A stretch of 40,264 bases of DNA. Origin: an uncultured Butyrivibrio sp. Its GTDB lineage: Bacteria > Bacillota > Clostridia > Lachnospirales > Lachnospiraceae. Shown piece by piece: positions 2,831 through 10,692 of the stretch. The first letter of the stretch is position 1. Every line of letters starts with the position of its first letter. Below the pieces are notes generated by a model. It had not been told where the DNA came from and searched no databases. It saw only the letters and a list, made by a program, of their open reading frames with translations. The stretch is from the NCBI GenBank assembly GCA_946546925.1, contig CAMNOS010000009.1, positions 1 through 40,264 on the forward strand. Direction: 5' to 3'. Both the position numbers and the translations under genes were made by a program.

Positions 2831-4786
2831 CTACCTGGTTAGGACAGCAATTCCGTAGGCCGGGACAGTCAGCGTATTTCCTTCCAGCATGCACTTGTCC
2901 TGTGTGGTTTCAAGTTCATAACAAAGCGTCCCATAATCTGCTGTTTCAACACTCTTTGAGAGATCCACTGCTTTTGCTTCGGCTGATGTATTTATCACTA
3001 TCAATAGTTCGGTTGGACCAAATCCAGCCAAATCACTCACTTGATTCTGGTTCGCAGTATTCGATGCGGCAGCATTTTCAAGGTACTCTTTTGCCTCATC
3101 CTCTGTGACTGACCTTGTGAAAGCACAGATGTCCTGGTCCGACAGTTCAGAAACCGTAGCTGTCCTTCCCCTGGCGATCACAGGATAAGTATTTCTGAGG
3201 CGCACTGCTTTTTTGACATAGTTGTATATGGAGTAGGGGTCCGCAAACTGCTCATCGGCTGCCGGATACTTCATTTTGAAGCTGTCCATGGCCCTTGGAC
3301 CCCTGCATATGCCTGTTCCAAGGTCTTCATCGATCCAGCCGGCAATCGCTCCGGTGCTGCTTTCTCCTGCATCGCTCTTTGCATCCGCACCGCCAGATTC
3401 TGCAGTCCAATACATCGGCGCTCTCTTATTCTCATCCTTGCCCGAGCCCTTCATGCCCAGCTCTTCGCCGTAGTAGACAAAGGCATTGCCCGCCATCAGA
3501 AGATTCAGTCCCTGCGCCAGCTTTATCTTGTCTTCGCCACCGCTGCCCGTGTAGTATCCTGCAGATCTCGCGATATCATGGTTGGTATAGAAAGGTGCGT
3601 CTATGGCATCAGGTTCTGCCTGTGCGATTGCTTCCTCAGCCTGCGCAAGCGAGTCACTATATCTGACTGCAGGGCTGTTCCCCCTGACCACCGAGGCGAT
3701 GATTCCCTCACTTGCCGCAAAGTCGAAGTCAAAAAAGCTGTCTATACCGCTCTCGTAGTACTTGTGATAAGTCGCAGAATTAACCCAGGCCTCACCAACG
3801 ATGTATGAGTTCTCATTCTGACTCTTGACGGTGTCATTGAGCCAGGTCATGAACTCGATATTCTTGCTGTCATTGCCTGTATAATAGAATGTTGTCGCAT
3901 CAAGTCTGAAGCCGTCCACACCTCTTTTGGTCCAGAAATCGGTGATCTTTGAAAGCTCCTTTCTCACAGCACTGCTGTCGAGATTAAGATCAGGCATGCC
4001 CGACCAGAACCTGGCTTCGTAGAAGTAGTCAGTATCCGGAAGCGGCTCAAATCCCTCCTGTTTCTCATTAGAGAAGGTATAGTATTCAAGATAAGGGCAC
4101 TCGGAAAGGTTTTCTTCATCCGAAAAATTTATTCCGGGATGGGCTTTTAAATACTCTGCGGCACTCGTAAACCATGGATGCTCCACAGAGGAATGGTTGA
4201 ATACCGTATCGATTATGACTCTTATCCCCCTGTCGTGGCATGCCTTCACCAGCTCGTCAAAATCCTCAAGACTGCCGTACTCAGGATCTATGTCCATATA
4301 ATCTGTGACGTCATACTTGTGGTATGTGGGAGAAGGACTTATGGGCATGAGCCATATCTCGTTAAAGCCCAGATCGTCATCCGTTGTGTCATCGCCGTCA
4401 TTTATATAGTCAAGCTTTTCTGTTACGCCCTTAAGATCTCCTATTCCGTCTCCATCGCTGTCATAGAACGAGTACACAAATATCTCGTAGGTGGTCCGGT
4501 ACTTGTCATCAATAATATTAAGGGATGGCAAATTCTCATCCTGCTGCGTTGTACTGCCACTCGCTCCCTGTGCGTCTCTATCTGCAGCATCAGCTCCAAT
4601 CTCTTCCTGTCCATCTGCATCCACAGCACCTGCGCCGGACGACGCCTGTCCTGCAGTACCTGCAGCACCACCGCCTGACAATCCGCACCCTGACAGTGTC
4701 AGCATACCCGCCATGAATATTGCCGCCGCGCTGCAGGTTTTATTTGATCTTAATACGTATCTGTTTCCAATAGCTCTGCCAAGCAT
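2831..4786 (-). CDS. Lipoprotein alpha-amylase, glycoside hydrolase family 13
   Basis: This 651-residue enzyme cleaves alpha-glucans outside the cell. The N-terminus has a basic region, a hydrophobic stretch and a lipobox (LSGC, lipidated Cys34), then a Gly/Ala/Asp-rich linker to about residue 85. The catalytic barrel follows. It has DTVFNHS (193-199, region I), GFRLDA with nucleophile Asp296 (region II), GEAW with acid/base Glu332 (region III) and TNHD with Asp404 (region IV). The Asp-rich SDGDGIGDL near 110-118 resembles the calcium loop of this family. A C-terminal beta domain ends in VPAYGIAVL. The ATG at 4786 has AGGAG 8-9 nt upstream. It fits surface starch or maltodextrin use by a gut or rumen anaerobe; the exact substrate is not shown. 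Confidence 0.93.
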   Translation of the reverse strand: MLGRAIGNRYVLRSNKTCSAAAIFMAGMLTLSGCGLSGGGAAGTAGQASSGAGAVDADGQEEIGADAADRDAQGASGSTTQQDENLPSLNIIDDKYRTTYEIFVYSFYDSDGDGIGDLKGVTEKLDYINDGDDTTDDDLGFNEIWLMPISPSPTYHKYDVTDYMDIDPEYGSLEDFDELVKACHDRGIRVIIDTVFNHSSVEHPWFTSAAEYLKAHPGINFSDEENLSECPYLEYYTFSNEKQEGFEPLPDTDYFYEARFWSGMPDLNLDSSAVRKELSKITDFWTKRGVDGFRLDATTFYYTGNDSKNIEFMTWLNDTVKSQNENSYIVGEAWVNSATYHKYYESGIDSFFDFDFAASEGIIASVVRGNSPAVRYSDSLAQAEEAIAQAEPDAIDAPFYTNHDIARSAGYYTGSGGEDKIKLAQGLNLLMAGNAFVYYGEELGMKGSGKDENKRAPMYWTAESGGADAKSDAGESSTGAIAGWIDEDLGTGICRGPRAMDSFKMKYPAADEQFADPYSIYNYVKKAVRLRNTYPVIARGRTATVSELSDQDICAFTRSVTEDEAKEYLENAAASNTANQNQVSDLAGFGPTELLIVINTSAEAKAVDLSKSVETADYGTLCYELETTQDKCMLEGNTLTVPAYGIAVLTR

Positions 4787-4833
4787 TCTTTCTCACTCCT
4801 TATATGTTATACAGATATGTAAATAAACAATAC

Positions 4834-4861
4834 TCTATAGACCCTGTTCCTGTTTTATCAA
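4834..4861 (-). promoter_or_regulatory. Possible promoter for the alpha-amylase gene
   Basis: The -35-like TTGATA (minus strand, 4856-4861) is 16 bp from the -10-like TATAGA (4834-4839). It sits downstream of the terminator-like hairpin at 4957-5035 and about 45 bp before the ATG. No catabolite-repression site was recognised. Confidence 0.4.
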
Positions 4862-4956
4862 TTGCATTTTAGCATTTTTATGCATTCATGTGGATAGCTT
4901 CTGTTTAGTTGTTAGTGTAATCCCATCCGCCTTTCCCCGGATAAGTGCCGCTATGC

Positions 4957-5035
4957 AAAAAGCTGTCTGATGTCAAGAGGCAGTACGCTGAGCATTTGTG
5001 CTCGGGCAACCCTTGACAGCAGGCAGCTTTTTTTT
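4957..5035. terminator. Long bidirectional terminator-like hairpin
   Basis: The arms 4957-4977 (AAAAAGCTGTCTGATGTCAAG) and 5012-5032 pair over 21 positions with two mismatches. Both outer edges end in T-runs on the relevant strand: eight T on plus, five on minus. The 34-nt loop holds a second hairpin, GAGCA-TTTG-TGCTC (4990-5003). On the minus strand it would stop transcripts from the lipoprotein gene before the amylase promoter. The stem is unusually long for a simple terminator, so it may also be a structured repeat. Confidence 0.65.
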
Positions 5036-5115
5036 CTGCAATCACCCGCCAGGTGAAGGCAGACTGATATATTAATACGATTCTGATTAAGATAGTATAC
5101 TTTTTTGAATGATAC

Positions 5116-5280
5116 GGGCTGGGTATTTACCGGGATAAATTTCAGGGTCGCTTTGAGGACGTTTTCACTCCCCTCGCCTCGCAGCGGTACTAAATACCTT
5201 GAGGGACAGGTATTAAGTACCGGCGGTCTCAGAGGCCTCTGCAGCGCCCCATGAAATCCATCCCGGTTAATGCCCAACCC
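5116..5280 (-). repeat. Large palindrome B, core copy read on minus strand
   Basis: The outer arms 5116-5150 and 5244-5280 pair imperfectly over about 36 positions. More of the mismatches become G-U pairs in minus-strand RNA than in plus-strand RNA. The inner hairpin is GGTACTAAATACCT (5186-5199) with AGGTATTAAGTACC (5208-5221), 13 of 14 paired around an 8-nt loop. On the minus strand the core then reads TACCGCTGC...GGAGTGAAAACGT, matching palindrome C on plus. The outer arms do not match those of C. Confidence 0.65.
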
Positions 5281-5335
5281 TTATGTATTAGACCATATTT
5301 CATATATGATTCAGACATTTTAAGAAATTGAATGA

Positions 5336-5484
5336 GTCAGGAATCAGATAAAAGCAGTTCCTCTCTCGCAGGCCCTTTGAGGCGGCCGGCACTTAGCACC
5401 TGTATTTTAGGTGCTTAGTACCGCTGCCAGACGAAAGGAGCGAAAGCGTGCCAAGAAGAGGAATGCTTTTATCTGATTCCTGAC
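5336..5484 (+). repeat. Large palindrome C, core copy read on plus strand
   Basis: The outer arms 5336-5356 and 5464-5484 are a perfect 21-bp inverted repeat (GTCAGGAATCAGATAAAAGC plus A). After one bulged G, a further 7 bp pair (5358-5364 with 5457-5463). The inner hairpin AGCACCT-loop-AGGTGCT (5394-5414) occupies the same place as AATACCT/AGGTATT in palindrome B: two base pairs changed on both arms, a covariation. The core continues TACCGCTGC...GGAGCGAAAGCGT. No T-run follows, so this is not a normal terminator. Confidence 0.7.
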
Positions 5485-5512
5485 GGAGTAGAGATTGCAA
5501 AAAAGTATATTT

Positions 5513-8500
5513 TTACAGACTCTTAATGCTGTCAGTTCTGATAATGAACTTCACACTGCTGTCTGTTTCTTCGGAAGATCCGCCAAATGACTTGTAGCTC
5601 TCTCCTGCCTTCTGAATTGCATCAAGTCTGTCTGTGAAATCTGAGAGGTCACCGTCGAATGCCTCATAGAGCTTCTTGATACCCTCCTCGTCGAACTTGA
5701 TCATGCCGTCCATAAGTTCCTGGACGCCGTCGTCAAGTTTGATTGCTCCGTCATCAAGTTCTCCGGCGCCATCGCCTAGCTCTTTTGCTCCGTCTCTGAG
5801 CTGACCTGCGCCATCCTTGAGCTGGCCTGCTCCGTCCTTAAGCTGGCCTGCTCCATCCTTAAGTTCTCCGGCGCCATCCTTAAGCTGACTTGTTCCGTCC
5901 TTGAGCTCTCCGGTACCATCCTTGAGCTGGCCTGCTCCATCCTTAAGTTCCTTTATTCCATCCTTGAGCTGGCCTGCACCGTCCTTGAGCTTTCCTGCGC
6001 CGTCCTTGAGCTGACCTGCTCCTGCGCTCACCTGAGCTGCTCCGGTGTTGAGCTGAGTGTTGTTTGAGGTAAGCTTTTCTGTTCCGTCATATATTGCGCC
6101 CACTCCATCGCTCACCTGACCTATACCTGCATCAAGGCTCACCTGTCCGGCCTTGAGTTTGCCAAGTCCGTTATCACCGGCAAGGAGTGCACATCCTGCA
6201 GCTACCTGCTCCGCACCTTTAGCGAGGTCATCGATGTTTTTGGCCGTATCTTCTGAGAGCAGATCTGTCATCATGGCCGAAATCTCACCATAGACTGTTC
6301 CAAGTGCAGAATATGCTCCCTGGGTTGCTCCGCACAATACACTGTATCTTCTGACATAGTCAGCAATCCTTGCCACATCACTGTCGCTGTAGCCGGTCTG
6401 GACATTCTTGACGATCACTTTCTTGGTCTCATTTCCTGTTGTGGAAAGATTTGTTTCTTCCTCGATTACTTCCCCTGCTTTAGCAGCACCCTCAGCTTGA
6501 GCTTCCGATGCTCCCACAGCTTCACTGCCATCTTCACCTGTCGCACTTTCTGTCTCGGACTGCTCCTTTTCGGCAGTGCCTGTCTCTTTGGAAGAATCGC
6601 TGCTATCTGAAGAGTTTTCCTGTGCTGCCTCCTTATTATCTTCTGACTCACCGCTCTCCTGCGCTGATTCTTTGGCATCTTCAGCCTCTTTGTTCTCTCC
6701 AGTCTCACTGGTCTCTTCAGCCTCTTTGGTATCCGCTTCTGCAGGCCCATCCTCGGTATCACCTTCACTTGCGTAAAGAACTCCCGTCTCTACCACATTT
6801 ACAAGCTCCTCATAGTTATCTATTACGTAGAGTGAGCTTGTTGTCTGTCCTGTAAGGGCAGCAAGAGCCGCCTTCTTAACCTTCACCGCATCGTGACCTG
6901 ATGAAATGCCGCTGTCTATAGACTGTAATACCGCAAGTACCTCTGCAGAAGGCACAGATTCTGTATCAGATGTATTTGTAAGCCATGTATAAGCTGCGCC
7001 GTAAAGATCCTGTTTGGATTTGATCTCAGCAAGTTTGTCTGAAGCCTTTACAAGATTGCCCATCATGGTCTGAACAAGCTTTACTCCGTTGCTAACTCCA
7101 CTGGCTCCTTCTGCAAGCTTCTGTGCATTAGTCTGCGCGTCGGTAACACCTGCAATGAGCTGCTCTGAACCGGCCTTTGCAGCCTGAACACCGCTCTTAA
7201 GCTGTCCTGCTCCCATAAGGATCTGTGTTGCCCCTTCTGTGTATGCTTTTATTCCCTGCGAAAGAACAGCTGCGCCATCGCTAAGGCTCTTGCCTCCGTC
7301 ATAAAGAGTCTTTGTCCCGTCGTAAAGACTTCCGGCACCTGTGTTTAATTTGCCGGCTCCGTCATACAGACTCTTTGTTCCATCATAGAGCTTGGATGCA
7401 CCGTCGTTGAGGCTCTTTGTTCCATCGTAGAGTTTGGATGTTCCGTCGCAGAGGCTGTCTGTTCCGTCATAGAGCTTGGATGTTCCGTCATAGAGATCGG
7501 ATGCACCGTCACTTAATTTGGATGTTCCGTCTGCGAGCTTGTCTGTTCCTTCTCTTAGCTTTGAAGTTCCATCCTTCAAAGTCTTTGTTCCCTCTACCAG
7601 ATCGTTTGAACCGTCGTTTAACTTATTCATATCATCTTTCAGATCATCGAGCTTATCTGAGCCTGAGAGGTCTGTCATTCCGAAATCCGAGAGGATGTCA
7701 GAACTTGCCATTGTGATCGTCATTCCAAGCTCGAAATCTGTTGTATCGGCAGTTATCTCGAATGAATTGGAAAGCTTGTCCCTGATCTCATCGGCATCAT
7801 CAAGCTCATCCCACTTCTCCTCGGAGATATCAAGGCTCTCCTTGAGTCCAGGAACTGCAACACCCATGACTATGATATTGCCGCCGTCAGAGATGACCTT
7901 GCCGTTTGAAATTTCAACATTGGAGAACTTCTCAGGATCAAGCATCATACCGGAAACCATTGCAAAAGGGGTGTAGACCTCAATATCCTTGCCGTCAACA
8001 TTCACAGTCTGCTTATCGTTGTTCTGATACTCAAAGCGCATTGTGACTTTGCCGCTCTTACCTGCAAGTTCTTCGGGAGATATTTCTTTTCCGTTGAGAG
8101 TGTAGCTGATCTTCATTGTTACAGGTAGCTCTTTTTGCGTAGTTCCCTGATAGTAAATATCAGAGCCTTCAGCGTCCCATGTGAGGGTTCCATCGCCGTT
8201 GTCTTTGAATGTCTCATTGCCCTTGACATTAACGATATCACGAAGCTGCGTCTTGTCGGAAAGCTCTGTGGCACCATCAATATTTTTGAGCCACTCGCTT
8301 ACGATGACATCGTTAACAGCACCGTTTGCATCTGCTGTTACATATACAGTCTCAACCTTTCCGGCATCTTCCAGAGAACCTGAAACGCCTGTTGCAGCCT
8401 GAATATTCTTTTCAAGCTCCTCTTCTCCGGAATCCTCTGCCTGCGCCGTGATACCAGTTTCATCTGCAACAGCAGTATTCTGTCCGCAAGCCACTGTCAT

Positions 8501-8560
8501 AACTGCCAGCATTGCTGCCATAATTACCGATAATGATTTCATAAGATTTTTTCTGATCAT
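5513..8560 (-). CDS. Heptad-repeat (YhgE-like) probable lipoprotein, partner of MMPL transporter
   Basis: This is a 1015-residue exported protein. A basic N-terminus and hydrophobic stretch end in MTVAC (Cys25), an imperfect lipobox. An N-terminal domain follows to about residue 300. Two arrays of heptads of the form xLxDGxx then appear, about 15 and 17 units, separated by a Glu/Ser-rich low-complexity segment (around residues 595-700) and a helical region. Such heptads occur in the extracellular coiled coils of YhgE/Pip and some MMPL proteins. No C-terminal membrane anchor is seen; the protein ends SSVKFIIRTDSIKSL. It starts 17 bp after the MMPL gene with a GGAGGA site, so the two form one unit. 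A stalk or tether role is inferred. Homologous function is unproven. Confidence 0.75.
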   Translation of the reverse strand: MIRKNLMKSLSVIMAAMLAVMTVACGQNTAVADETGITAQAEDSGEEELEKNIQAATGVSGSLEDAGKVETVYVTADANGAVNDVIVSEWLKNIDGATELSDKTQLRDIVNVKGNETFKDNGDGTLTWDAEGSDIYYQGTTQKELPVTMKISYTLNGKEISPEELAGKSGKVTMRFEYQNNDKQTVNVDGKDIEVYTPFAMVSGMMLDPEKFSNVEISNGKVISDGGNIIVMGVAVPGLKESLDISEEKWDELDDADEIRDKLSNSFEITADTTDFELGMTITMASSDILSDFGMTDLSGSDKLDDLKDDMNKLNDGSNDLVEGTKTLKDGTSKLREGTDKLADGTSKLSDGASDLYDGTSKLYDGTDSLCDGTSKLYDGTKSLNDGASKLYDGTKSLYDGAGKLNTGAGSLYDGTKTLYDGGKSLSDGAAVLSQGIKAYTEGATQILMGAGQLKSGVQAAKAGSEQLIAGVTDAQTNAQKLAEGASGVSNGVKLVQTMMGNLVKASDKLAEIKSKQDLYGAAYTWLTNTSDTESVPSAEVLAVLQSIDSGISSGHDAVKVKKAALAALTGQTTSSLYVIDNYEELVNVVETGVLYASEGDTEDGPAEADTKEAEETSETGENKEAEDAKESAQESGESEDNKEAAQENSSDSSDSSKETGTAEKEQSETESATGEDGSEAVGASEAQAEGAAKAGEVIEEETNLSTTGNETKKVIVKNVQTGYSDSDVARIADYVRRYSVLCGATQGAYSALGTVYGEISAMMTDLLSEDTAKNIDDLAKGAEQVAAGCALLAGDNGLGKLKAGQVSLDAGIGQVSDGVGAIYDGTEKLTSNNTQLNTGAAQVSAGAGQLKDGAGKLKDGAGQLKDGIKELKDGAGQLKDGTGELKDGTSQLKDGAGELKDGAGQLKDGAGQLKDGAGQLRDGAKELGDGAGELDDGAIKLDDGVQELMDGMIKFDEEGIKKLYEAFDGDLSDFTDRLDAIQKAGESYKSFGGSSEETDSSVKFIIRTDSIKSL
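5700..6050 (-). repeat. Near-identical 21-bp tandem repeats coding C-terminal heptads
   Basis: About 17 units of 21 bp encode QLKDGAG-type heptads. Neighbouring units differ by only a few bases, far more alike than the first array, suggesting recent expansion. Copy number could vary by slippage or recombination. Confidence 0.85.
7265..7625 (-). repeat. 21-bp tandem repeats coding N-terminal heptads
   Basis: About 15 units of 21 bp encode KLYDGTS-type heptads (Leu at position 2, Asp-Gly at 4-5). Units are more diverged than those at 5700-6050. They are in frame within the lipoprotein gene and are not a CRISPR array. Confidence 0.85.
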
Positions 8561-8577: not shown

Positions 8578-10692
8578 TTAAGCAACTCTGTGCCTGTGGA
8601 TCAGATTCCCGAGGTGATGGGGCTGCTTTTCATCTATATTCATTCCAAAGGTGGTTTTCATAATAAGTCCGTCAAATATCATGTACATCGCAGGCAGTAC
8701 CAGAAGTACCGTGAACATACTGATGATCGCGCCTCTTGCCATGAGCATGCAGAGGGATCCGATCATGTCGATACTTGATATAAGGCCAACACCGAAGGTT
8801 GCTGCAAAGAAGCTCAGGGCGCTCACAATAACGGATTTCATGCTTGTTGTAAGGGCGATAAGAGTTGACTCTTTCTTGTCATGCCCGGCTCTTCTCTCGT
8901 TTAAGTATCTGGTGGTCATAAGGATCGCATAATCCACCGTAGCTCCCAGCTGGATTGTTCCAATTACCACAGATGAGATGAACGGGATCACCGTACCTGT
9001 GTAATATGGAAGTCCCATGTTGACGAAGATAGCAAACTCAATTACAGCCACAAGTATGAACGGAAGTGAAACCGACTTGAGCACGAAAGCTATGATAAGG
9101 AACACAAGCCCTATCGAAACAATGTTTACTACCTGGAAGTCATGGGCTGTTATATTGATAAGATCCTTGGTACAGGGTGCCTCACCTACTACCATTGCAC
9201 CCGGATCATAGCTCTTGACAATCGAGTCAACCTCTGCGATCTGAGCATTGATCTCATCGGAAGCGATCTTGTAATCGGTTGTCAAAAGAATCAGCTTCCA
9301 TTCATCACTCTCAAGATCAGAGAGAAGGTCATCCGGAATAAAGCTCTTCGGAAATGCAGGCCCGATTATTGAATCTGCTCCAAGAACAGCAATGATACCG
9401 TCTGTCTTCTTAAGGCTCTCTATCATCTGGCTCATTGATGCGCTGTCCAGATCCTTGTCCACCAGCAGCATGTAAGCAGAGTTCATGTCGAACTTCTCAT
9501 CCACCTTGTTCGCTCCCTGAACACTCTCAAGGTTGTCCGGAAGTGTCTGTGTCAGATCATAGTAAACGGCTGTGTGGTTGTTGCCGTAAACAGCAGGTGC
9601 TATAAGTGCCAGGAAGATCACAAAGAATGCAACGTAATACTTTGAAACAAACCTTGGTATCCTGACAAATTCCTTCATGAGAGGCTTGTGTCTTGTCTTC
9701 TCTATAAGTCCGTCAAATACAAGTATCATGCTCGGAAGTATCGTAACGCAGCCAATAACGCCGAATACGACGCCCTTGGCCATTACAACACCAAGATCAA
9801 GACCCAGAGTGAAGCTCATAAAGCACAGAGCTATGAAGCCTGCAACCGTTGTGATCGAGCTTCCTATAACAGAAATGAAGGTAGCGGATATCGCTCTTGC
9901 CATCGCTTCGTTCTTGTCATCTGTCTTCTCAAGTTCCTCCTGGTAGCTGTGCCACAGGAAGATGGAGTAGTCCAGCGTAACTCCCAGCTGAAGTACTGCG
10001 CTCAGTGACTGGGTGACAAAAGAGATCTCTCCCTTGAATACATTGGTTCCCATGTTGTAGACGATTGCCATACCTATGCTCAGAAGGAAAAACAGAGGAA
10101 TAAGGTAGGAATCCATTGTCAGTGAAAGAACTATAACCGCAAGAAGTACTGCTATTCCGACGTAGATCGGTGTCTCCTTCATTGCCAGATTCTTGGTGTC
10201 TGTAACTATGGCGCTCATTCCGCTCATAAAGCACTGCTTATTGGATACACGTCTTATGTCCTCAATTGCATCCATTGTTGCATCTGCCGATGTTCCCTCA
10301 TCAAATACGATGAACATCATCGTTGCATCATCGCTGTTAAAGGCATCATACACATCAGCGGGAAGCATCTCCATGGGTACTGACAGATCCATGATCGAGT
10401 CATACCATATAACGTCTGCGACGTGGTCTATATCCTCAATCTTCGCCTTGAGGTCCGCAACATCCTTCTCCTCCATGCCCTCTGCCACATACAGTACAAA
10501 AGAGCCTGTACCAAACTGATCAAGAAGGATGTCCTGTCCCTTCATTGTCTCAATATCCCCGGGAAGGTATGTGAGGATATCGTAGTTGACTCTCGTGTTC
10601 AGATAGCCTATGGCAGACGGAATGAGAAGCACAAATGCTGCAATCAAAATAACATATCTCAGCTTAACAATCATCTGTGTAAGCTTGTTCAT
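8578..10692 (-). CDS. MMPL/RND superfamily transporter
   Basis: This 704-residue polytopic protein has the two-fold RND layout: one N-terminal membrane helix (12-30), an extracytoplasmic domain, a bundle of helices, then the same again. The Asp-Tyr pairs that carry proton coupling in MmpL proteins are present in both halves, TLDYSIFLW and TVDYAILMTTRY. The extracytoplasmic loops lack the LxDG heptads present in some Firmicute MMPL proteins; these are instead carried by the downstream lipoprotein. The ATG at 10692 has GGAGGAGG upstream. A divergent TetR regulator lies across a 216-bp gap with three operator-like repeats. Substrate is unknown; export of a lipid or amphipathic compound is typical for the family. 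Confidence 0.9.
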   Translation of the reverse strand: MNKLTQMIVKLRYVILIAAFVLLIPSAIGYLNTRVNYDILTYLPGDIETMKGQDILLDQFGTGSFVLYVAEGMEEKDVADLKAKIEDIDHVADVIWYDSIMDLSVPMEMLPADVYDAFNSDDATMMFIVFDEGTSADATMDAIEDIRRVSNKQCFMSGMSAIVTDTKNLAMKETPIYVGIAVLLAVIVLSLTMDSYLIPLFFLLSIGMAIVYNMGTNVFKGEISFVTQSLSAVLQLGVTLDYSIFLWHSYQEELEKTDDKNEAMARAISATFISVIGSSITTVAGFIALCFMSFTLGLDLGVVMAKGVVFGVIGCVTILPSMILVFDGLIEKTRHKPLMKEFVRIPRFVSKYYVAFFVIFLALIAPAVYGNNHTAVYYDLTQTLPDNLESVQGANKVDEKFDMNSAYMLLVDKDLDSASMSQMIESLKKTDGIIAVLGADSIIGPAFPKSFIPDDLLSDLESDEWKLILLTTDYKIASDEINAQIAEVDSIVKSYDPGAMVVGEAPCTKDLINITAHDFQVVNIVSIGLVFLIIAFVLKSVSLPFILVAVIEFAIFVNMGLPYYTGTVIPFISSVVIGTIQLGATVDYAILMTTRYLNERRAGHDKKESTLIALTTSMKSVIVSALSFFAATFGVGLISSIDMIGSLCMLMARGAIISMFTVLLVLPAMYMIFDGLIMKTTFGMNIDEKQPHHLGNLIHRHRVA

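Follow-up and report, generated by a model that had tools for sequence, protein, structure and literature searches.

Foldback transposable elements carry very long inverted repeats around a short centre, and bcr1 is a bacterial MITE with a folded transcript. The bcr1 element of the Bacillus cereus group is referred to in an excerpt of PMC2267715. In mitochondria, the double-hairpin elements of Allomyces and the repetitive hairpins of sponges are described, in the excerpted text of PMC2800124, as repeated and thought to be mobile; some of the sponge elements differ by complementary substitutions, and the Allomyces elements were reported without flanking duplications. Hairpins of RNA genes, on the other hand, can be maintained by template switching, in which one arm is copied onto the other and compensatory changes arise without selection (excerpt of PMC8794818), and quasipalindrome correction has been described in E. 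coli (excerpt of PMC7202029). There are also the mobile/repeat sequence candidates (MRSC), structured multicopy motifs with no constant gene orientation (excerpts of PMC11109978 and PMC8632094).

The repeat described here comes from an uncultured Butyrivibrio sp. and lies in a stretch of 40,264 nucleotides that was analysed as a whole (the window). Like bcr1-type MITEs it is short, non-coding, multicopy and mobile and has a conserved foldable sequence, but its arms differ between copies and yet are palindromic, and one core goes with several ends. It resembles the foldback elements in its long inverted repeats around a short centre; here, however, the centre is a conserved RNA-like fold and the arms vary between copies. 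Unlike the mitochondrial hairpins, which are organellar, its arms reach 130 bp and duplications are present (compared with the excerpt of PMC2800124). The arm-onto-arm copying proposed below is akin to template switching and quasipalindrome correction; unlike those cases, from RNA genes and E. coli, there are many mobile copies per genome, and the multi-base changes that would be expected were not seen (compared with the excerpts of PMC8794818 and PMC7202029). With MRSC it shares a structured, multicopy nature and the lack of a constant orientation to genes, but MRSC-65-2 (repeat UYCCGG, diverse phyla) is a different motif (excerpts of PMC11109978 and PMC8632094); the string "lachnospir" occurs 0 times in the main text of either paper, whose supplements may list an equivalent. 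No description of this hairpin family was found among the matches listed in searches of open-access main texts. The reading we favour is that of a new foldback family, MITE-like and with an RNA-like core. A mobile family with such a core is well supported; for the explanation as a whole, which takes the window's unit for a non-autonomous mobile element whose family is distributed across Lachnospiraceae, we put the probability at roughly 0.68.

A first-pass annotation had described a 414-bp non-coding unit with inverted 12-bp ends at 5096-5509, enclosing two inverted cores about 70% alike. This layout was borne out: the ends match perfectly, and 63 of 88 aligned columns are identical between the cores. 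The core alignment also reproduces the hairpin difference that had been pointed out, AATACCT/AGGTATT versus AGCACCT/AGGTGCT, and the copy-specific outer arms proved real, those of core A being near-perfect and unlike those of core B (by eye), which are complementary at 21 of 21 positions (5336-5356 versus 5464-5484). In the following list of features, cores A and B, to which the two model scores belong, are both among the 24 sequences used to build the covariance model.

5096-5107, plus strand: left terminal inverted repeat, 12 bp, perfect, TATACTTTTTTG
5116-5152, minus strand: outer arm of core A, the 3' arm in sense (by eye)
5151-5237, minus strand: core A in its minus-strand reading; covariance-model match 5140-5256 minus, 91.3 bits
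5161-5168, minus strand: GNRA mini-hairpin of core A, GTGAAAAC in sense, closing pair U-A instead of C-G
5243-5280, minus strand: outer arm of core A, the 5' arm in sense (by eye)
5336-5364, plus strand: 5' arm of core B, made of 5336-5356 and the inner part 5358-5364
5371-5457, plus strand: core B, three-way-junction fold; covariance-model match 5352-5468 plus, 120.8 bits
5440-5447, plus strand: GNRA mini-hairpin of core B, GCGAAAGC
5457-5484, plus strand: 3' arm of core B, made of the inner part 5457-5463 and 5464-5484
5498-5509, plus strand: right terminal inverted repeat, 12 bp, perfect, CAAAAAAGTATA

Folded as single-stranded DNA, the unit reaches -100.4 kcal/mol versus a shuffle mean of -46.7 (z -10.5), a value equalled by 0 of 100 shuffles. 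It is intergenic, between genes at 2831-4786 and 5513-8560, both on the minus strand. The product of the former resembles glycoside hydrolases, every NCBIfam match being below its cut-off; the latter, to the right of the unit, encodes a 1015-aa xxxLxxG heptad-repeat protein. Beside the heptad-repeat gene, an MMPL-like transporter gene lies at 8578-10692, again with transporter matches below their cut-offs. Ends resembling those of the unit recur in its other copies in the window genome (by eye). At the window copy no target duplication was seen; the mobility of this copy shows only through its repeats in the genome. Just left of the unit, at 4957-5032, there is a separate 21-nt inverted repeat, 90% complementary and with a T-run. 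Sequence like it, around GCTCGGGCARCCCTTGACAG, adjoins the copies in L022 and L024 (by eye), and it may be another small repeat of the window genome.

A search for the core in this genome and its relatives had been proposed by the first-pass annotation, which would have given up its claim if no other copies existed. Further copies were found. In the window genome, a DNA search gave 39 matching stretches at E<=0.001, a figure that includes the unit itself, inverted self-matches and several pieces of single copies, and the covariance model gave at least 19 matches with 150 of 309 candidates scored. By DNA search the core is present in 10 of 41 genomes, the window genome included, all of one genus. 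With the covariance model R1 there were at least 132 copies in Eisenbergiella tayi DSM 26961, at least 34 in Falcatimonas MSJ-15, at least 32 in G047 (a relative of E. tayi), at least 31 in Lachnospiraceae bacterium CE91-St56, at least 15 in FE2018, at least 10 and at least 3 in two Butyrivibrio, and 0-1 in six other E. tayi relatives; these numbers are lower bounds, the model searches having scored at most 150 candidates per genome and 9-12 in the family and phylum samples. At E<=1e-6 the model matched at least 110 of the 299 genomes (109 of 298 genera) in the family sample and at least 5 of the 398 in the phylum sample, 4 of these 5 belonging to Lachnospiraceae. A pattern for the 3' half of the core occurred in at least 119 stretches in named genomes. 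Among the 80 such loci listed, 65 are labelled Lachnospiraceae or with one of its genera, 5 are labelled only "bacterium", and 10 carry other labels (L064, L065, L069, L095, L104, L107, L116, L119, L121 and L131). L069 shows no fold of this kind by eye and appears to be a chance match; others may be mislabelled bins.

Phages and plasmids searched with one E. tayi element gave no match. For positions 4700-5900 of the window, Rfam 15 returned a single match at E 0.99, far below its cut-off, and over 18 loci at E<=0.5 it returned no match inside an element. Clostridiales-1 RNA (RF01699, 94 bits) lies at 2593-2760 of L052, near yet apart from an element copy; this one strong Rfam match being outside the element, Clostridiales-1 was rejected as the identity of the family.

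The comparison of empty sites, also suggested at the outset, was made between E. tayi and its sister genome G048. The E. tayi copy at 7720-8015 of L219 is missing from G048, whose sequence continues uninterrupted; the palindrome has been inserted in its entirety, and the 8-bp target duplication TTGCATCC borders it on both sides. A second E. tayi copy, near L219:11900, is also absent in G048, with unclear borders. The clean site bears on the idea that the core inserts into the loop of pre-existing palindromes, for example terminators, and takes its differing arms from them. Arms that differ between copies would fit such an origin, as would the terminator-like T-run near the end of many CE91-St56 arms; the empty site, however, has no palindrome, the entire palindrome having come in with a direct duplication, and duplications border the arms and not the core. 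Loop insertion is refuted at the single site checked, and we consider it extremely improbable in general. Alignment of three locus pairs from E. tayi, G047 and G048 whose neighbouring genes match showed no recognisable shared insertion.

Exact flanking repeats of 8-10 bp were found at 11 of 27 CE91-St56 copies (mean of the exchanged-flank control 0.07), 2 of 19 in G047 (control 0.00), 4 of 46 in E. tayi (control 0.04; two are doubtful), and 1 of 8 in G048 (control 0.12). The CE91-St56 duplications comprise seven of 9 bp, three of 10 and one of 8, ten of them at ends like GGGTGYAGATAAAAA; those of G047 are 10 bp, at ends CAGGACAAASGCATGA; E. tayi and G048 together have three clean ones, each of 8 bp, a GGGTATGGATAAAAA end bordering one and GTWAC ends the other two. 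Ends of several kinds thus accompany one core, among them GGGTGYAGATAAAAAA, GTWACNRTTCA and CAGGACAAACGCATGA, and in these few copies the end type appears tied to the length of the duplication. A rough sorting of E. tayi copies gave two end types and left 27 of 43 copies unsorted.

The same duplications weigh on the possibility that a Y1 transposase (RAYT or IS200/IS605) moves the family in the form of single-stranded DNA, as a REP/BIME-like element. The family is palindromic, has many copies and appears selected for the fold of one strand, all of which would suit such an element, and the sense strand tends weakly to avoid the G-rich strand (22 vs 44, unadjusted p 0.009, counted without 5 of the 31 CE91-St56 copies, near the origin or terminus, and without 4 of 44 copies from E. 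tayi, which lie in two loci where the skew is under 0.03). The bias is not significant in E. tayi alone (16 vs 24, p 0.27), however, and Y1 enzymes are not known to make target duplications, whereas here the movement leaves duplications of 8-10 bp. We think this origin very unlikely, and the duplications speak against an integron attC reading as well.

The family as a whole has the terminal inverted repeats and target duplications of MITEs, none being seen at the window copy, together with their lack of coding capacity, many copies and mostly intergenic position; a crude ORF finder placed 8 of 43 E. tayi copies within ORFs of 90-256 codons, and these ORFs may be spurious. IS66 was considered as a possible mover: the only IS66 gene of E. 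tayi showed no pair of ends like the element's, and a similar end is present at an IS66 locus of G048. In CE91-St56, core-less palindromes with the family's ends and solitary ends both occur, as would be left by deletions inside palindromes; inspection by eye of 15 CE91-St56 loci that carry solitary ends brought out no recognisable transposase. Five core-less palindromes of 54-91 bp with the family's ends were noted in L377-L381; the one in L381 has an exact 9-bp target repeat, those in L378 and L380 have 8 of 9 positions (by eye), and the core-less forms may be mobile too. Separately, ends of the type GTWACNRTTCAGCC (at most one mismatch) occur 45 times on the plus strand and 25 times on the minus strand of the E. 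tayi contigs of G041, versus 10 and 8 for controls, an excess on one strand.

We now turn to the core, a conserved stretch of about 80 nt whose sense strand is predicted to fold as a long hairpin and a GNRA mini-hairpin at a three-way junction. From the 5' arm inwards there are a small internal loop, a 3-bp helix GGN/NCC and then the junction, and the long hairpin has a bulge GCY, a U-U mismatch and a loop GUNYUUU (by eye). A covariance model had been called for, and alignments of many more copies showed compensatory changes, beyond the shuffled and slid controls; their absence would have counted as a refutation in the first-pass annotation. In 24 copies, 150 cells changed on both sides versus a shuffled mean of 45 and 31-49 when slid, with both-side changes in 32 of 36 pairs (20 shuffled, 14-18 slid); in 123 copies, in an alignment fitted to the model, the count was 1147 versus 367 shuffled and 172-276 slid, with both-side changes in 34 of 36 pairs. 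Of 110 distinct cores taken from four genomes by a model that already includes the GNRA loop, and counted without loci L055-L134, which had been fetched with a pattern partly fixing it, 107 have the loop; in the same set the third base is a purine in all 109 four-base loops. DNA tetraloops tolerate any base at the third place (GNNA), and the purine rule therefore argues for, and does not prove, a fold of RNA rather than DNA. Core pairs also tolerate G-U: it outnumbers A-C by 84:25, or 84:43 when one fixed C-A column is kept, and in the four-genome core set there are 43 GU and 32 AC, or 12 AC after that column is dropped. These patterns support a core that would be selected as a single-strand fold, and the GNRA rule and the tolerance of G-U make RNA a more likely form of it than single-stranded DNA. 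In some window-genome copies (L009 at 676-836, L012, L013, L015 and L020) the apical loop of the core has about 100 extra nt, forming two more hairpins with the same motif, ACTTGGCGAGG...CGAGCCTAGT, in A-type and B-type cores, as if apical-loop modules had been exchanged among copies.

The core sits in the middle of a palindrome whose arms measure 20-45 bp in copies of the window genome and reach 130 bp elsewhere. When pairing was extended outwards in four genomes, arms of at least 20 bp were found in 100 of 109 copies, the longest being 130 bp (5 of 114 matches gave no arm, and 9 of the 109 had arms under 20 bp). Median arm lengths are 95 bp in E. tayi (46 copies), 86 in G048 (8), 73 in CE91-St56 (27) and 72 in G047 (19), and median identities are, in the same order, 97.8, 98.6, 95.9 and 95.1%, the arm anchor being the best-scoring one, which favours high identity. 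Shorter arms are found elsewhere: the median is 22 bp at the pattern loci (55 of 67 copies), 24 bp for 9 of 10 copies of the window genome and 25 bp for 11 of 14 of its genus. In genomes with long arms, the two halves of a copy mirror each other almost perfectly, yet from one copy to the next their sequence drifts. Among 903 copy pairs of E. tayi, 161 have cores at least 85% alike; the local alignment of their arms scores 20 or less in 119 of these, and in 41 like-core pairs the arms align no better than the best of three shuffles. Like-core pairs with unrelated arms number 3 of 235 in CE91-St56 and 21 of 95 in G047. Arms without resemblance are thus frequent in E. tayi but seldom seen in the CE91-St56 set, which looks younger.

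How the arms diverge was followed in 23 homologous pairs, picked by the likeness of the right arm and using each copy once, in which every differing column was sorted as co-changed (both copies still paired), one-arm or complex. Of 276 differing columns, 183 are co-changed, 87 one-arm and 6 complex. The corresponding counts are 120, 26 and 3 for the 8 E. tayi pairs, 35, 37 and 0 for 10 CE91-St56 pairs and 28, 24 and 3 for 5 G047 pairs, so that co-change is far weaker in the latter two genomes. In the E. tayi pair L217/L219 there are 15 co-changes and zero other differences over 89 columns, both palindromes being perfect. This is where the family parts from an ordinary MITE, in which a perfect master palindrome would have been spread and differing arms would have diverged long ago or arisen separately. 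In its ends, its size and its target duplications the family is like a MITE, and many CE91-St56 copies are nearly identical. Arms decaying independently would, however, yield one-arm changes only, and a conserved core fold is not known as a usual feature of MITEs; we find this account quite unlikely.

The first-pass annotation had left it between selection and a copying mechanism to keep the pairing, and each finds support in a different place, selection in the core and copying in the long arms. Selection on the pairing of the sense strand should leave more G-U than A-C among the standing arm mismatches. The long arms have 68 GU and 96 AC, no excess of G-U, and together with their co-changed columns this is what template switching would lead one to expect, namely co-change without a G-U bias. 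The contrast between core and long arms has p 7e-9, or 3e-5 with the fixed C-A column kept, copies being taken as independent. A single G-U intermediate cannot bridge a transversion, and transversions make up 83 of 180 co-changes in a recount of 19 of the 23 pairs, the four omitted pairs containing 3 co-changes. On the basis of the both-arm co-changes and the missing G-U excess, the long arms are probably kept complementary by copying of DNA. Multi-base template-switch tracts were not seen in the arms, the co-changes being unclustered (22 adjacent columns vs 25 expected, p 0.79), and the bulged T of many E. tayi arms, which is never "corrected" (by eye), counts against arm copying.

The shorter arms lean the other way, with GU:AC of 28:16 at the pattern loci (55 of 67 copies), 4:1 in the window's own genome and 2:3 in its genus, or 34:20 together (p 0.08); they differ from the long arms at p 0.007, and the ratio pooled over all arms is 102:116. 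Short arms, those of the window included, may be under selection for pairing. Copy B of the window and that of L009 are set apart by one one-arm change and by two co-changes, which are transitions throughout, CA->TG in one arm with TG->CA in the other (by eye). Most simply, long arms would pass single mutations from one arm to the other, and selection would bear on the core and perhaps also on the 20-25 bp of arm nearest to it.

A structured non-coding RNA, with arms kept paired by ordinary compensatory selection on that RNA, would explain the window and L009 transitions equally well, and it would account for the covariation, GNRA loops and G-U excess of the core and for the leaning of the short arms. 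Against it stand the long arms, with no excess of G-U and with 83 transversions among 180 co-changes, and the copy number, which runs from 0 to at least 132 among relatives, as well as the target duplications, which indicate movement. The copies also lie in every orientation to genes: for E. tayi, 43 of 44 model matches were entered and 42 were classed with the crude ORF finder, as 16 codirectional antisense, 10 sense, 11 divergent and 5 convergent. Having no constant orientation, they are a poor fit to a cis-regulator. Another point for the RNA reading is a copy between pnp and prfC, found in the same place in four genomes of the genus (L038, L040, L042 and L046) and antisense to both genes, which were named for L042 and assigned by likeness at the other three loci. 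In the closest pair, 3 of 144 positions of this copy differ versus 32 of 225 in the flanks (p 4e-5), and two genomes differ at this site by one A-T -> T-A change in both arms. Such conservation points to a useful role there and not to mobility alone, and some copies may have been put to use. For the family at large we judge the purely RNA-based explanation rather unlikely. The alternatives that the first-pass annotation had offered, a structured RNA or a non-autonomous mobile element family, both find support, in the RNA-like core and the mobile palindromes respectively.

Under the preferred reading of a mobile foldback family, transposases of resident insertion sequences would move the element by its ends, and a replication or transposition intermediate would snap back on the folded core. 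One arm could then template the other, so that a point mutation would either disappear or be transferred to its partner arm. The core fold would be preserved by selection on a single strand, with RNA the more likely form, and short arms may be maintained by the selection that keeps the core. That the folded core is what seeds the snap-back is a tentative suggestion, to which we give somewhat less than even odds; the core might instead be bound by protein or act as RNA. It is further conceivable, if doubtful, that the core is a palindrome-building module which, once folded, primes the copying of one flank onto the other, and that a lone insertion-sequence end nearby would in this way become an inverted end pair and at once a mobile element. 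A single core could by this route borrow unrelated transposases, and the route would explain both the different ends with duplications of 8, 9 and 10 bp, seen in few copies, and the near-perfect, non-identical arms.

Compensatory change is the standard proof of RNA structure. The family provides a natural test bed for that proof, since its long arms co-change apparently by DNA copying and its centre by selection, and it may show how MITEs are born. It is also an abundant repeat of common gut bacteria, one that can mislead assembly and RNA annotation.
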